From Tepidimicrobium xylanilyticum (GTDB taxonomy: Bacteria > Bacillota > Clostridia > Tissierellales > Tepidimicrobiaceae): a DNA stretch of 64,000 bases. The notes under the pieces were generated by a model that saw only the letters and a list, made by a program, of their open reading frames with translations, searched no databases and had not been told where the DNA came from. How positions within the stretch are numbered: position 1 is the first letter of the stretch; each line of letters begins with the position of its first letter. Both the position numbers and the translations under genes were made by a program. Shown here in pieces: positions 2,656 through 9,255 of the stretch. The stretch lies in NCBI RefSeq assembly GCF_900106765.1, contig NZ_FNNG01000002.1:1-64000 (forward strand). Reading direction: 5' to 3'.

Positions 2656-2873
2656 TGACTCCCCCTCCTCTCATACCTATATATATTATTTGGCTGATTT
2701 GTCCTATTCTCCACAATTGCTTAGCAACTCTATCTATCTATTCTTTTCTTCAGTACTTTCTCATAAAGATATTTTTGCAATAACATTAAACGATGTAGTT
2801 ATAACACCTTATGAGAATAAAGAAATATATTAACTACAACCCACTCCACTCTTCTCTCTCTTTATTTGAAACA

Positions 2874-3107
2874 TTAGGCTGTTTGATCTTTATTATTAGT
2901 TGAAGTTTCTTCAACTTTATGTTTGAAAAAAATTGATGGATCCACTTCTAATATTTCTGCAATTCGTTTAGCTTTATCTATCGTTATCTTAACTACACCG
3001 TTTTCTAGTAAACAATAACTACTTTTGCCACTATAACCAAGCTTATCAGCCATGTCTTGTTGTGTATAGCCCTTTTCAATTCGTAACTTTTTTAGTAATT
3101 CGTTCAC
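2874..3107 (-). CDS. Cro-like XRE-family DNA-binding protein
   Basis: This 77-residue protein consists almost only of an XRE helix-turn-helix (residues 4-62; TQQDMADKLGYSGKSSYCLLE). It starts with GTG at 3107 after a strong GGAGG site. It is divergent from the repressor gene at 3288, and the 180 bp between them hold a consensus promoter and several operator palindromes. By analogy with lambdoid phages it would be the Cro-like first gene of the leftward (lytic/early) operon. An alternative is a small activator of the XRE type. Confidence 0.75.
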   Translation of the reverse strand: MNELLKKLRIEKGYTQQDMADKLGYSGKSSYCLLENGVVKITIDKAKRIAEILEVDPSIFFKHKVEETSTNNKDQTA

Positions 3108-3124
3108 TTTTTATACCTCCTTAT

Positions 3125-3274
3125 GTTTAAGTTTCTTAAACCTTCTATTATGAATTATAGTTTAAGCAACTTAAACTGTCAATAGTTTTTTTGAATTTTG
3201 TTGAATCTTCTTAAACTTTTATTTTTAATACGAATTTATAAGTTATAATTTAAGTAAGTTTAAGTTTTTTGAAC
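3125..3274. promoter_or_regulatory. Repressor operator set, GTTTAAG-N3-CTTAAAC
   Basis: There are four 17-bp sites in the Cro-like/repressor intergenic region. Two are perfect palindromes, at 3125-3141 (GTTTAAGTTTCTTAAAC) and 3160-3176 (GTTTAAGCAACTTAAAC). Two are degenerate, at 3200-3216 (GTTGAATCTTCTTAAAC) and 3258-3274 (GTTTAAGTTTTTTGAAC). An isolated half-site lies at 3248-3254. The second site fills exactly the spacer of the leftward promoter, and the fourth abuts the repressor's ribosome binding site. They are very probably bound by the XRE repressor and/or the Cro-like protein. Confidence 0.8.
3154..3182 (-). promoter_or_regulatory. Leftward early promoter (sigma-A type)
   Basis: On the minus strand a perfect -35 box TTGACA (3182-3177) and a perfect -10 box TATAAT (3159-3154) are separated by exactly 17 bp. 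The spacer is the 17-bp operator GTTTAAG...CTTAAAC itself, so bound repressor would block RNA polymerase. It drives the Cro-like gene at 3107 and presumably the early genes to its left. Confidence 0.85.
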
Positions 3275-3287
3275 AGGTGGGATAAAT

Positions 3288-3725
3288 ATGTCATCATTAG
3301 CAAAACGAATTAAAGAATTAAGGCAAGAAAGAAATTTGACACAAGAAGAGTTCGGAAATATATTTGGTATTGTAAAATCCACTGTTTCTTTATATGAAAG
3401 TGGGAAAAGTACTCCGGATGATGAGTTAAAGAAGAAAATAGCTAAATATTTTAATGTATCTTTAGATTATCTTATGGGTGTTTCGGATGTAAGAAACCCA
3501 TATAAAGAAACATCAGAAAATAAAATTATAAAAGATGATGGATATGAGCTAACTCCTGAGGAAAAAGAGCTTCTCGAAACCATAACATCAGATCCAGAGC
3601 TTTCTGTTCTATTCCATGACCTTAAATCAGCACCTAAAAAGAAAATAAAACAATTGCTTAAAACATGGGAATTTATCAATGAACAGTTTGAAGAAATGGA
3701 AAAGGAATTGGATGATGAGGAATAA
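3288..3725 (+). CDS. XRE-family phage repressor (SknR-like)
   Basis: This 145-residue protein has a Cro/CI helix-turn-helix at residues 5-64 (LTQEEFGNIFGIVKSTVSLYESGK) and a helical, acidic C-terminal part that probably mediates dimerisation. It lacks a LexA-type peptidase domain, so inactivation would not be by self-cleavage. The start at 3288 has AGGTGG at 3275-3280. It is divergent from the Cro-like gene and followed by two coiled-coil genes and an ImmA/IrrE-type gene. In ICEBs1 and related elements ImmA cleaves such a repressor, which suggests the induction route. SknR of the B. subtilis skin element is the closest functional parallel. Confidence 0.8.
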   Translation: MSSLAKRIKELRQERNLTQEEFGNIFGIVKSTVSLYESGKSTPDDELKKKIAKYFNVSLDYLMGVSDVRNPYKETSENKIIKDDGYELTPEEKELLETITSDPELSVLFHDLKSAPKKKIKQLLKTWEFINEQFEEMEKELDDEE

Positions 3726-3756: not shown

Positions 3757-4005
3757 ATGGCCAAAATAACTGATAGAGAACTATTAGAACTTATTGCTAC
3801 TCAAGTAGCTAATCTTACAACTGAAGTTAAAGATATAAAAAACGAAGTTAAAGATATAAGAAACAAAGTTACAATTATTGAACAAGAGCATGGCAAAAAG
3901 TTGGACGCTCTATTTGATGGATATAAGCAAGTCTATGAAAAGCTTGATAAAATCGAAGATGAAGTATCTAAGCATGAAGAAATAATATTAAGACATGTAA
4001 GATAA
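3757..4005 (+). CDS. small coiled-coil protein
   Basis: This product of about 82 residues is almost wholly predicted coiled coil, with a short repeat (TEVKDIKNEVKDIRNKV, residues 18-34). The ATG at 3757 sits after GGAGG and is preferred to an upstream in-frame TTG at 3742, which lies inside the ribosome binding site. It shares its N-terminal organisation with the next gene, and the two may be diverged copies. Function is unknown; similar proteins occur beside repressors in clostridial prophages. Confidence 0.65.
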   Translation: MAKITDRELLELIATQVANLTTEVKDIKNEVKDIRNKVTIIEQEHGKKLDALFDGYKQVYEKLDKIEDEVSKHEEIILRHVR

Positions 4006-4036: not shown

Positions 4037-4501
4037 ATGAACAATGATATTCTTTATCAGATACTTAATGAACTGAAAGAACTTAAAGAAAATCAAAATT
4101 CAATGCAAGACCAAATGAATGACATGCAAAACCAAATAAATGGTATGCAAAATCAAATGAATGATATGCAAAACCAAATAAATGGTATGCAAAGCCAAAT
4201 AAATAGTATGCTAAATGAGTTTAATAAAATCAGAGAAGAACTAGTAGATACAAAAAAAGAATTAAGTAATGAAATCAGTAGTGTAAAAAGTGAACTCAAA
4301 GACTTTAGAGAAGAAACTAATACAAGATTCGATGCTTTAGAGGATAGATTGGATGAAATGGAAGCTGTTAATGGAAAAAGACATCTTGATTTTGTTAAGG
4401 AATTAAAAGAACTAAGACATTCAGTTAATAGAATTGAAATAAATACTGCAGAAAACTGGAGAGATATTGCTAGACTCAAGGCTATGAGAAAATATAAATA
4501 G
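4037..4501 (+). CDS. coiled-coil protein with tandem heptad repeats
   Basis: This 154-residue protein has residues 20-58 made of near-identical 7-residue units (MQNQING / MQNQMND), followed by further coiled coil to about residue 135 and a basic tail. The start at 4037 follows GGAGG. It probably forms a long rod or oligomer. It lies in the rightward operon of the repressor, between a shorter coiled-coil gene and the ImmA/IrrE gene, with regular intergenic spacing and repeated ATTATAAA-GGAGG leaders. No function is known. Confidence 0.65.
   Translation: MNNDILYQILNELKELKENQNSMQDQMNDMQNQINGMQNQMNDMQNQINGMQSQINSMLNEFNKIREELVDTKKELSNEISSVKSELKDFREETNTRFDALEDRLDEMEAVNGKRHLDFVKELKELRHSVNRIEINTAENWRDIARLKAMRKYK
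4103..4210 (+). repeat. Tandem 21/42-bp repeat within coiled-coil gene
   Basis: Units of 21 bases encode MQNQMND or MQNQING and alternate to give a 42-bp higher-order repeat. About five units are present, the last ones degenerate. Because the unit length is a multiple of three, gain or loss of units keeps the frame, so repeat number may vary between strains. Confidence 0.8.
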
Positions 4502-4563
4502 GAAATAAATTAGATTATAAAATCTTTGTGCAACAATTCGTTCATCAAGGGGGGAATGACAGA

Positions 4564-5112
4564 ATGATATTAGGTGACTTTATACCGAATCAGCAAACTA
4601 ATTATCTTGAAAACAAAGCTAATGAAATCCTTTTAGATAACTTCATTGAGCATCCATACGAGATAGATCTTGAGACAATAATTGATATAAATTATAAAAA
4701 TATAAAAGTTTTCTATTCTAATCAAGATAGTAAAGTCATTATAAAAAGAAATATGGCTGTAATTATTGTTAATGATAGGCTTGAATATAGAAAGCAACGT
4801 GAGGAATTAGCTGAAGAATTCTGTCACTTTTTATTACATTGCGGTAATCAGATCAATTATAAATACGATATCGTTTTAGACAAGCAAGAACAGCAGGCTA
4901 AAAGAATGTCTGCCTATCTTCTCTGCCCTTTATATATGCTAAAAACTATAACTATTCCTATGGATACATATTGCACAATCCATGAGCTAGCAGACATATT
5001 TAATGTTACATACGAGTTTATGAAATATAGATTAAGCCTTATTTGGGGACAAGACTTGAATTTAATAACAGTACACAACGGAGAATTCTATGGAAATATA
5101 TCTATAGAATAA
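4564..5112 (+). CDS. ImmA/IrrE-family protein with altered metal motif
   Basis: This protein of about 182 residues resembles the ImmA/IrrE metallopeptidase family, which in mobile elements cleaves the neighbouring repressor. The usual HEXXH zinc site should lie near residue 85, but here it reads LAEEFCHFLLHCGNQ: the first histidine is replaced by glutamate, while the second histidine and the following LLH are kept. Activity is therefore uncertain. The ATG at 4564 after a GGGGGGA site is preferred to the in-frame GTG at 4528. It is the last gene of the repressor operon, the usual place for an anti-repressor protease. Confidence 0.7.
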   Translation: MILGDFIPNQQTNYLENKANEILLDNFIEHPYEIDLETIIDINYKNIKVFYSNQDSKVIIKRNMAVIIVNDRLEYRKQREELAEEFCHFLLHCGNQINYKYDIVLDKQEQQAKRMSAYLLCPLYMLKTITIPMDTYCTIHELADIFNVTYEFMKYRLSLIWGQDLNLITVHNGEFYGNISIE

Positions 5113-7225: not shown

Positions 7226-7249
7226 TATATGTTTTAAAGGGTGATTATG

Positions 7250-8884
7250 ATGAAAATAGCTATATACTCTAGAAAATCTAAATTCACTGGCAAAGGTGAA
7301 TCAATAGATAATCAAATAGAAATGTGCAAAGAATATGCTAATAAACACTTTAACAACATAGAAGAATTTATTATATATGAAGATGAAGGTTTTTCAGGGG
7401 GTAACATAGATAGGCCACAGTTTAAACTTATGATGAAGGATGCTAAAAGTAAGAAATTCAATGTTTTGGTTTGCTATAGATTGGATAGAATTAGTAGAAA
7501 TATAGCTGATTTTTCTTCACTTATAGAAGAGCTGCAGAAAAACGATATATCATTTGTTTCCATTAGAGAACAGTTTGACACGTCCACTCCTATGGGCAGA
7601 GCAATGATGTATATTGCAAGTGTATTTGCTCAATTAGAGAGGGAAACCATTGCAGAAAGAATAAGGGACAATATGTTACAATTGGCCAAGACTGGAAGAT
7701 GGCTTGGAGGAATTACTCCTACTGGCTTTGATTCTGAAGAAATGATCTTCATAGATTCATCTGGTAAAGAAAAAAAACTGTTTAAGCTTTCTCCTATAAA
7801 AGAGGAAATTAAAATAGTAAAGCTAATATATAAAAAATTTCTGGAACTGGATTCCTTAACTCAATTGGAGACATTCTGCATACAAAACAATATAAAAACT
7901 AAAAATGGCATTAATTACTCTAGATTTGCATTAAGAAATATACTTACTAACCCTGTATATGCAACGGCTGATGAAGATACATATAATTATTTCATTGATA
8001 ATGGATATGAAGTTTATTCAGATGAAAGCAAATTCAATGGAACTAAAGGTATTATGGCATATAACAAGACCATTCAAAGAAAAAACACTTCAAATAAGCT
8101 GCGTGACCCATCTGAATGGATAATAGCAGTAGGAAAACATCCTGGAATTATTAAAGGTAAAGAGTGGGTGAAGGTGCAAAATATGATAGAAAGAAATAGA
8201 TCCAAATCATTTAGAAAAGTTAAAAATTCTGAATCCCTTCTATCTGGAATTTTAAGATGTGGTAATTGTGGTAGCTTTATGAGACCAAAACTTGGCAGAG
8301 TAAATAAAGATGGAATCCAAGTTTTTTATTACATTTGTGAACTAAAAGAAAAAAGTAAACGAGAAAAATGTAATATGAAAAATGTAAAAGGTAATGATTT
8401 AGATCAACTTGTTATAGATGAGATTAAAAAACTATCCTATGAAGGATCTAGCCTCTCCAAAAAGATAGAAAAAGATAGAATTAATATTATTAGTACTAAA
8501 AATACTTTAAACGCTGAAATAAGGGATATTAAAACTAAGATAGAAAACAACCAAAAGGCCATTGCTAATCTAGTAAACACTTTAGCTGATGGCCAAGAAT
8601 CTAATGCTTCTAAATACATAATAGAGCAAATAAATGAACTGGATGAGGAGAATTCAAGGTTAAAAGAAAAATTACTTGAGTTAGAGGAAAAAGCAGAATC
8701 GAATAATTTAAAAGAAGACAATATTGAAATCATAAATGATGTGATAGCTAAATTTGCTGATATGATTGATAATGCAAATGTAATACAGAAAAGAAATTTA
8801 ATAAGATCAGTAGTAGATAAGATTACCTGGAATGGGGAGAATATAGATATCGTTATGTTTGGAGCTGATTCAAGAAAAAAGTAA
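7250..8884 (+). CDS. spoIVCA: Large serine recombinase (SpoIVCA-like, skin excision)
   Basis: This protein of about 544 residues is a large serine recombinase. Domains in order: resolvase catalytic domain at residues 1-150, with the nucleophile Ser7 in IYSRKS and the conserved YRLDRISRN and ERETIAERI segments; recombinase domain at about 175-280; zinc-ribbon with CGNCG and a later pair of cysteines at about 330-375; and a long coiled coil at about 400-500. It is the first gene inside the element and converges on the interrupted sigK, as spoIVCA does. It should excise the element in the mother cell to rebuild sigK. The ATG at 7250 is preferred to a GTG at 7241 because it has proper spacing from AAAGG. 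The gene is intact. Confidence 0.92.
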   Translation: MKIAIYSRKSKFTGKGESIDNQIEMCKEYANKHFNNIEEFIIYEDEGFSGGNIDRPQFKLMMKDAKSKKFNVLVCYRLDRISRNIADFSSLIEELQKNDISFVSIREQFDTSTPMGRAMMYIASVFAQLERETIAERIRDNMLQLAKTGRWLGGITPTGFDSEEMIFIDSSGKEKKLFKLSPIKEEIKIVKLIYKKFLELDSLTQLETFCIQNNIKTKNGINYSRFALRNILTNPVYATADEDTYNYFIDNGYEVYSDESKFNGTKGIMAYNKTIQRKNTSNKLRDPSEWIIAVGKHPGIIKGKEWVKVQNMIERNRSKSFRKVKNSESLLSGILRCGNCGSFMRPKLGRVNKDGIQVFYYICELKEKSKREKCNMKNVKGNDLDQLVIDEIKKLSYEGSSLSKKIEKDRINIISTKNTLNAEIRDIKTKIENNQKAIANLVNTLADGQESNASKYIIEQINELDEENSRLKEKLLELEEKAESNNLKEDNIEIINDVIAKFADMIDNANVIQKRNLIRSVVDKITWNGENIDIVMFGADSRKK

Positions 8885-8898
8885 TGGAAATGTTTCCG

Positions 8899-8930
8899 TT
8901 ATGTGAGTATAGCATTTTCAATGCAACGTG
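8899..8930. other. Right attachment junction of the skin element
   Basis: The sigK reading frame keeps similarity through TYAARCIEN (ending near 8916) and then diverges to AILT and a stop. In intact sigK and in sigE of this window the segment continues as ENEILMYLR. The crossover must therefore lie in or next to the GAAAATG codons. The exact core cannot be set without the left junction. Confidence 0.75.
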
Positions 8931-9255
8931 CAGCATAAGTGGCTAATCTAGTGCCTTTATTGATGTCAAATGTAGAAATAGCTTTAATGAGACCAATCGT
9001 ACCAATGGAAATTAAATCGTCCATATCCTTCCCGGAACTATTATATTTTTTTACAATATGTGCTACTAATCTTAAATTCCTTTCGATTAAAATATTTCTA
9101 GCTTTTTCATCTCCTGCAGCACATCTGATTAAATAATGTTCTTCTTCCTCCTTAGTGAGAGGCCTTGGAAATGAATTTGTATTTGAAATATATCCTGAAA
9201 AAATTAAAAAATTCTTTACTATTTCAGTAAAACAAAAAAATAGTTGGGAAAACAT
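8899..9255 (-). CDS. sigK: RNA polymerase sigma-K, 5' half (interrupted by skin)
   Basis: This 118-codon fragment encodes the N-terminal half of sigma-K, the late mother-cell sigma factor. Seen: a hydrophobic pro-sequence-like N-terminus of 28 residues (MFSQLFFCFTEIVKNFLIFS), the same length as the pro-region of B. subtilis sigma-K, then region 2 with NLRLVAHIVKKY and [13 protein letters not shown], ending at the element junction in CIEN. The downstream regions 3 and 4 lie beyond the left end of the window. A GGAGGT site precedes the ATG at 9255. It is functional only after excision of the element. The pro-sequence suggests a second control by SpoIVFB-type proteolysis. Confidence 0.93.
   Translation of the reverse strand: MFSQLFFCFTEIVKNFLIFSGYISNTNSFPRPLTKEEEEHYLIRCAAGDEKARNILIERNLRLVAHIVKKYNSSGKDMDDLISIGTIGLIKAISTFDINKGTRLATYAARCIENAILT

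Follow-up and report, generated by a model that had tools for sequence, protein, structure and literature searches.

The CI/MOR switch of the lactococcal phage TP901-1 relies on three operators, OL, OR and OD (PMC7250872), and it was from that description that we assigned the labels OL and OD to sites in the TP901-1 sequence record. Its repressor and Cro-position genes are divergent, its own 17-bp sites have the form GTTCA-N7-TGAAC, and a metallo-protease gene adjoins cI. The site at 3319-3335 of the record (taken as OL) lies just downstream of the -10 box of the lytic promoter, and the site at 3567-3583 (taken as OD) overlaps the 3' end of mor (3357-3575), 248 bp from OL. In the Rro/Tec switch of r1t, also a lactococcal phage, a repeat AACTTGACAAATTGG[A/C]TAGTTA was recognised by eye both at the 3' end of tec and at the promoter; this repeat is the r1t operator. 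The CI protein of phage phi13 has similar affinities for OD and OL (15 and 22 nM; PMC8516035). In ICEBs1, an XRE repressor (ImmR) and the anti-repressor ImmA control the early-gene promoter (PMC6957869); the same source cites SknR of the B. subtilis skin element, named in the title of the cited paper as a CI-like repressor of the genes of the sigK-intervening element. Rco of pLS20, a conjugative plasmid, regulates divergent promoters, activates and then represses its own promoter, and acts through operators with multiple binding sites, two of which, the one located downstream of the main promoter and another, are joined by a DNA loop (PMC4207663); here the likeness is one of description.

The locus considered here lies in a 64,000-nucleotide stretch of Tepidimicrobium xylanilyticum DNA (the window), and since the window starts at the end of contig C2, the element that it carries is visible in part only. 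We propose that this virus-like element, situated in a sporulation gene, probably silences itself via a repressor with a five-site array (O1 to O5). The features of the region are the following.

2874-3107, minus strand: Cro-like XRE protein, 77 aa (PF01381, E=1.8e-11)
2899-2915, unstranded: O5, distal operator-like site GTTGAAGTTTCTTCAAC within the 3'-terminal part of the Cro-like gene, assigned from sequence only
3125-3141, unstranded: O2, perfect (0 mismatches), just upstream of the ribosome-binding site of the Cro-like gene
3154-3182, minus strand: P_L, leftward early promoter TTGACA-N17-TATAAT, 12/12 consensus
3160-3176, unstranded: O1, perfect (0 mismatches), exactly the P_L spacer
3200-3216, unstranded: O3, degenerate (2 mismatches), centre at about -48 of the predicted repressor transcript
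3244-3249, plus strand: predicted -10 box (TATAAT) of the repressor promoter P_rep, whose best -35 box has 3 mismatches
3258-3274, unstranded: O4, degenerate (2 mismatches), at about +2 to +18 relative to the start predicted for the repressor transcript
3288-3725, plus strand: XRE repressor, 145 aa, N-terminal HTH (PF01381, E=1.4e-14; phrog_8, E=4e-25)
3757-4005, plus strand: small coiled-coil-like protein encoded downstream of the repressor (phrog_15901, E=1.4e-17, a family of unknown function)
4037-4501, plus strand: coiled-coil-like protein behind the repressor gene (only Pfam matches below the cut-off)
4528-5112, plus strand: ImmA/IrrE-like M78 protein (PF06114, E=1.7e-13; phrog_87 metallo-protease, E=5e-22)
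7241-8884, plus strand: large serine recombinase at the sigK junction (PF00239, PF07508, PF13408)
8899-9255, minus strand: N-terminal half of sigK at the skin junction (TIGR02846 positions 4-115, match C2:8902-9237)

The arrangement of TP901-1 is recovered in this sequence, with O1 and O2 on P_L and O3 between the divergent promoters; O2, like the site taken as OL, lies just downstream of the early -10 box, and O5, like the one taken as OD, lies at the 3' end of the Cro-position gene, 226 bp from O2. In contrast, TP901-1 has three operators where five are present here, the spacer of its lytic promoter (AAGATAAAAACACATGA) is without the motif whereas O1 fills the spacer here, and its Cro-position protein MOR is annotated as DUF739, to which the Cro-like protein of the window has no match at E values up to 0.001. 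The r1t switch differs in that its repeat includes the -35 box and in its longer repressor gene (837 nt). The order of ImmR and ImmA is likewise found, an XRE repressor gene being followed on the same strand by an M78 gene, and the ICEBs1 Xre regulator structure 7t8i (E=1.2e-7) is, together with PezA, the best match of the repressor among solved structures; here, however, two coiled-coil-like genes separate repressor and M78 genes, and EEFCH stands where HEXXH is usual. The switch is of a largely familiar kind, its parts being known and its layout more elaborate than the preliminary description of this DNA had seen. Judged from the sequence, the distal-operator topology of TP901-1 is extended, with two more putative sites, to a skin element and its clostridial relatives. 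The present additions are the fifth site, the arrangement in five sites and the recurrence of spacer and distal sites with unrelated operator sequences; the exact five-site layout was not found in the literature, in a search that reached few subscription papers.

The preliminary description had named four GTTTAAG-N3-CTTAAAC sites, two perfect and two degenerate. All four were confirmed in position and quality, but the set was not complete, the fifth site at 2899-2915 having been missed. A site model from which the window's own sites were left out ranks precisely O1 to O5 as the top five in the 64 kb (14.9-22.5 bits, with O5 at 19.8 bits), and the sixth scores 8.8 bits. Among 20,000 dinucleotide shuffles of 2661-3300 (640 bases), 201 contained any site with ≤2 mismatches, a single one contained two sites, and none contained more than two sites or a perfect one, as against five sites, two of them perfect, in the real region. 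Over the whole 64 kb, sites with ≤3 mismatches are unremarkable in number (8 vs 7.0 expected); it is the clustering and the perfect pair that are remarkable, not the total count. The genome-wide motif search suggested by the preliminary description returned 33 sites with ≤2 mismatches against 28 for a reversed control pattern, and thus no excess elsewhere; five of the 33, including the only two perfect ones in the genome, are the array of the window, and a wider regulon of the motif was not found in this search. A chance origin of the array is rejected on the basis of the local shuffles and the genome-wide reversed-pattern control.

Seventeen of the 28 other genome sites were scored with the leave-window-out model, the best of them being C10:12042-12058 (L172) with 17.1 bits; this single site is flanked by two ORFs, of which the downstream one looks MATE-like, and is possibly due to chance. 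Around a one-mismatch site at C1:456940, neither an ORF of at least 80 aa within the surrounding 2 kb nor an Rfam match was found. The same two-mismatch 17-mer occurs at C20:49-65, C26:11786-11802 and C29:7131-7147, near a contig end in at least two cases (C26 has 11,828 bases), which suggests a repeated element at assembly breaks.

The claim that one perfect palindrome forms the exact 17-bp spacer of the leftward promoter was borne out. On the minus strand, TTGACA (3182-3177) and TATAAT (3159-3154) enclose the spacer 3176-3160, which is O1 itself. The XRE repressor would bind the 17-bp palindromes as a dimer, and because O1 takes the place of the spacer, bound repressor and RNA polymerase would exclude each other at P_L; O2, at about +7 to +23 of the predicted P_L transcript (as reckoned from its presumed start), would provide a second block just downstream of the start. 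The sequence supports the original proposal of an operator-like array between divergent XRE genes, positioned for repression of the leftward early promoter. P_L is one of 36 perfect TTGACA-N17-TATAAT promoters in the 3.0-Mb genome, and its spacer has the highest mirror score of all (7/8; three others reach 6, and the mean is 2.75). Two of the 36 perfect promoters that lie outside immunity regions score 6/8, and the promoter spacer at C26:4213 is palindromic-looking but off-centre, with no XRE ORF seen by eye within 3 kb. A second XRE immunity-like region of the genome (C6:96629-96657; L012, L173) has its spacer filled by ATGGACAAAACGTCCAT; its operator is ATGGAC-N5-GTCCAT, of which a distal copy, at a distance of 259 bp, is contained in the terminal part of the region's Cro-like ORF.

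Spacer filling was also surveyed at 147 loci, 23 having been excluded beforehand (the window copies L001, L002 and L005, other stretches of the same genome, and L040-L047). Of these, 146 matched the HTH and 114 were non-redundant, 95 with and 19 without a P_L-like promoter (≤2 mismatches, spacer of 16-18, best in range). For the 60 non-redundant, protein-selected loci with a 17-bp spacer and ≤1 mismatch, mirror symmetry peaks at offset 0 from the spacer centre, with a mean of 3.85/8 as compared to 2.20 (sd 0.15) for shuffled spacers, or 11 standard deviations, and with 2.02 and 2.10 at offsets -1 and +1. Scores of at least 5/8 are reached by 29/60 spacers (2.3 expected) and, where HTH identity is <65%, by 16/44 (1.6 expected); the remaining 31/60 score below 5/8, and the spacer-filling rule is not universal. 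A second symmetry maximum lies at offset +16, just past the -10 box (3.68/8 in the 60 loci vs 2.60 when the hexamers are kept in the null), and in the 31 perfect promoters it equals that at offset 0 (4.00 each). With the hexamers kept in the null, the excess is largest at offset 0 (1.67, and 1.93 in the perfect set) and second largest at +16 (1.08 and 1.35); this second maximum is partly due to the fixed hexamers, and its remaining excess is unexplained. In L097, L099, L100, L101 and L103, a GTTGAAG half-site stands at the spacer end and the site lies about 10 bp further on, on the -10 box. The spacers of L006, L016 and L104 carry a direct repeat GTTAC-N5-GTTAC instead of a palindrome; copies resembling it occur at other places between the genes, and the repeats may reflect a different mode of repressor binding.

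In relatives, the layout reads O5-(225-251)-O2-(32-35)-O1 (promoter spacer)-(about 40)-O3-(52-61)-O4, the O1-O3 spacing being 40-41 with the exception of L045 (30). All five sites exceed the threshold in 12/16 loci of a hand-chosen set whose site model was trained on sites of the same loci, the exceptions being L031 (without O3), L052 (three sites), L053 (two) and L054 (none). Four of the 16 (L042, L043, L045 and L047) came from a DNA pattern, and the same contigs were found again by protein (as L107, L109, L096 and L092). The same array accompanies the repressor's closest relatives, both in viral contigs and in genomes of the order. As judged by eye, HTHs with KST[VI]S[LM]YE mostly pair with GTT[TGC]AA half-sites and those with KST[VI]SQYE with GTTT[TGA]A, with single-position exceptions, and this tracking of half-site form by HTH variant points to sites that belong with the repressor. 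Outside the HTH, the C-termini of the repressors are strongly divergent among relatives; the repressors of the window, L031, L032, L050, L045 and L017 have similar HTHs and different C-terminal parts, and in L045 an L017-type HTH appears by eye to be joined to an L029-type C-terminus. Many loci are related, and their counts do not represent independent events. Tentatively, and at somewhat short of even chances, we suggest that the five-site array, with its spacer operator, its distal operator and a P_rep that lacks a -35 box and is driven through O3, is a general design in many Firmicutes prophages with unrelated operator sequences, in which operator and HTH co-evolve, the layout stays and the repressor C-terminus is swapped.

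The distal site recurs also where the operators are unrelated in sequence. With each locus searched for matches to its own O1, a site 240-290 bp from O1 was found in 25/42 loci (27 hits vs 0.69 expected) and none in the other 17/42; the 42 are those of 46 loci in which O1 lies 90-150 nt from the repressor gene, and as the 46 had been preselected for an O1 mirror score of at least 4/7, the rate is conditional on that choice. Further peaks of own-O1 matches lie at -40 to -20 (29/42 loci), +25 to +45 (17) and +50 to +110 (25), and the ranges beyond and between the peaks gave a single hit apiece where 1.24 and 0.99 would be expected. Of the distal sites in the 25 loci, 13 are contained in the ORF, 2 span its stop codon, 9 follow the stop immediately and the last is 22 nt beyond it; the ORF was chosen by length and position, as the longest of 45-110 aa at the expected place. 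A site that may lie inside, across or behind the stop is kept as DNA and not as protein, and given this varied placement we rejected O5 as a by-product of coding conservation. It was also rejected as the operator of a second promoter, since no promoter was found there, the best match being no better than at random positions (mean best mismatches 4.48 vs 4.42).

As it lies in no recognisable promoter, O5 would most likely raise the occupancy of O1 and O2 through a repressor-bridged DNA loop, or else act as a roadblock. The latter, that is, the same switch without looping, in which O5 halts polymerases escaping from P_L so that the genes beyond cro stay off, is possible but rather unlikely in our estimation. 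It accords with the position of O5, which in those 25/42 loci ends the first gene transcribed from P_L and is outside any promoter, and with the absence of helical phasing between O5 and O1, such as looping might impose, at 10.5 bp (R=0.32 for 25 non-independent distances; R is higher at 12.25-12.5 bp, up to 0.57). Yet a roadblock needs no set distance, and O5 and O1 are 248-286 bp apart, a constancy that may just reflect the length of the Cro-like gene.

On the repressor side, the preliminary description had expected weaker autoregulation from the degenerate sites. P_rep was followed at 17/18 loci including the window (L110, which has no O1, was dropped), with O2 to O5 defined as the best site within a fixed range, so that weak ones are forced. 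Its -10 box is perfect in 11/17 loci, and its best -35 box has at least 3 mismatches in 15/17; O4 starts between -8 and +2 relative to the predicted start of the repressor transcript in 16/17, and the centre of O3, forced to the best place in its range, lies at -48 to -53 in 14/17. In median bits, O4 (18.1) is close to O1 (18.3) and O3 lower (15.8), the values of the window being 19.7, 20.8 and 15.8, respectively. The expectation is thus supported only in part, O3 being weak and O4 scoring like O1. With O4 at the predicted start and O3 upstream of the missing -35 box, an autoregulation that is both positive and negative seems no less likely on positional grounds, and it is the version that we favour. 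In lambda, CI bound at OR2 activates PRM, and the position of O3 is near such an activator placement. At low repressor levels O3 would probably help P_rep, with its good -10 box and no -35 box, and at high levels O4 would shut it off at its start.

At some of the sites the repressor would face competition from the Cro-like protein. That the latter is the main ligand of some of them (for example, O3 and O4), the degenerate sites being Cro-selective, we regard as unlikely: lambda offers a precedent for Cro-preferred operator sites, both proteins here are XRE proteins, and O3 is the weakest site in relatives at the median given above, but O4 and O5 fit the common consensus to much the same degree as O1. 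Far less probable still, and rejected, is the reading of the palindromes as RNA hairpins (leader or terminator elements) and not operators, since, although O2 and O5 would be transcribed and can fold (-2.9 and -5.2 kcal/mol, which almost no shuffle surpasses), their stems have little stability in absolute terms, neither O1, placed between the -35 and -10 boxes, nor O3, located upstream of both promoters, is in the two main predicted transcripts, and the five sites have sequence in common and not only pairing.

The proposed repressor switch is embedded in the gene content of a prophage. Leftwards, the Cro-like protein (with matches to HTH_3, HTH_19, HTH_31 and HTH_26) comes first, followed by small ORFs and a further XRE regulator and then by Gam-like and RecT genes. 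The C-terminal half of sigK is located on another contig (G000:C13:1711-2070, TIGR02846 positions 108-226), and the split of the gene between C2 and C13 with a serine recombinase at the junction upholds the assignment to a skin element made in the preliminary description. Gene content and split sigK together identify an immunity region of a skin-type prophage. Near the other skin end, C13:743-967 (L075) encodes a 74-aa ORF that, by eye, looks like LexA reduced to its DNA-binding half, the cleavage domain being absent. A search of the window for the LexA-type box, CGAAC-N4-GTTCG, was negative, with 2 matches at 2 mismatches where 3.36 are expected.

Induction would proceed via the ImmA-like protein encoded behind the repressor. 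The HEXXH zinc motif is defining for M78, and as its first His is absent here, protease activity is uncertain; the protein may hold zinc differently or may be inactive as a protease. Among relatives, the motif reads EELGH in L107, L112 and L113 and HELGH in L095, L122 and L126. In 19 loci with at least 2 kb downstream, an [HE]ExxH-type ORF is present in 9, two of which (L092, L159) have it only in the repressor frame, leaving 7/19.

Taken as a whole, we consider it highly likely that the array is the lysogeny-control region, or phage immunity switch, of a prophage inserted in sigK. The layout amounts to a testable rule, by which one spacer palindrome predicts further sites at set distances, one of them about 250 bp away, and which is meant to extend to prophages whose operators are unrelated. 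Promoters have been engineered to hold an operator between their -35 and -10 boxes, and, if the explanation is true, P_L would be a natural counterpart to them, and immunity groups would be predictable from sequence. The skin context would become relevant if this repressor, in addition, keeps the element from being lost too readily outside sporulation.
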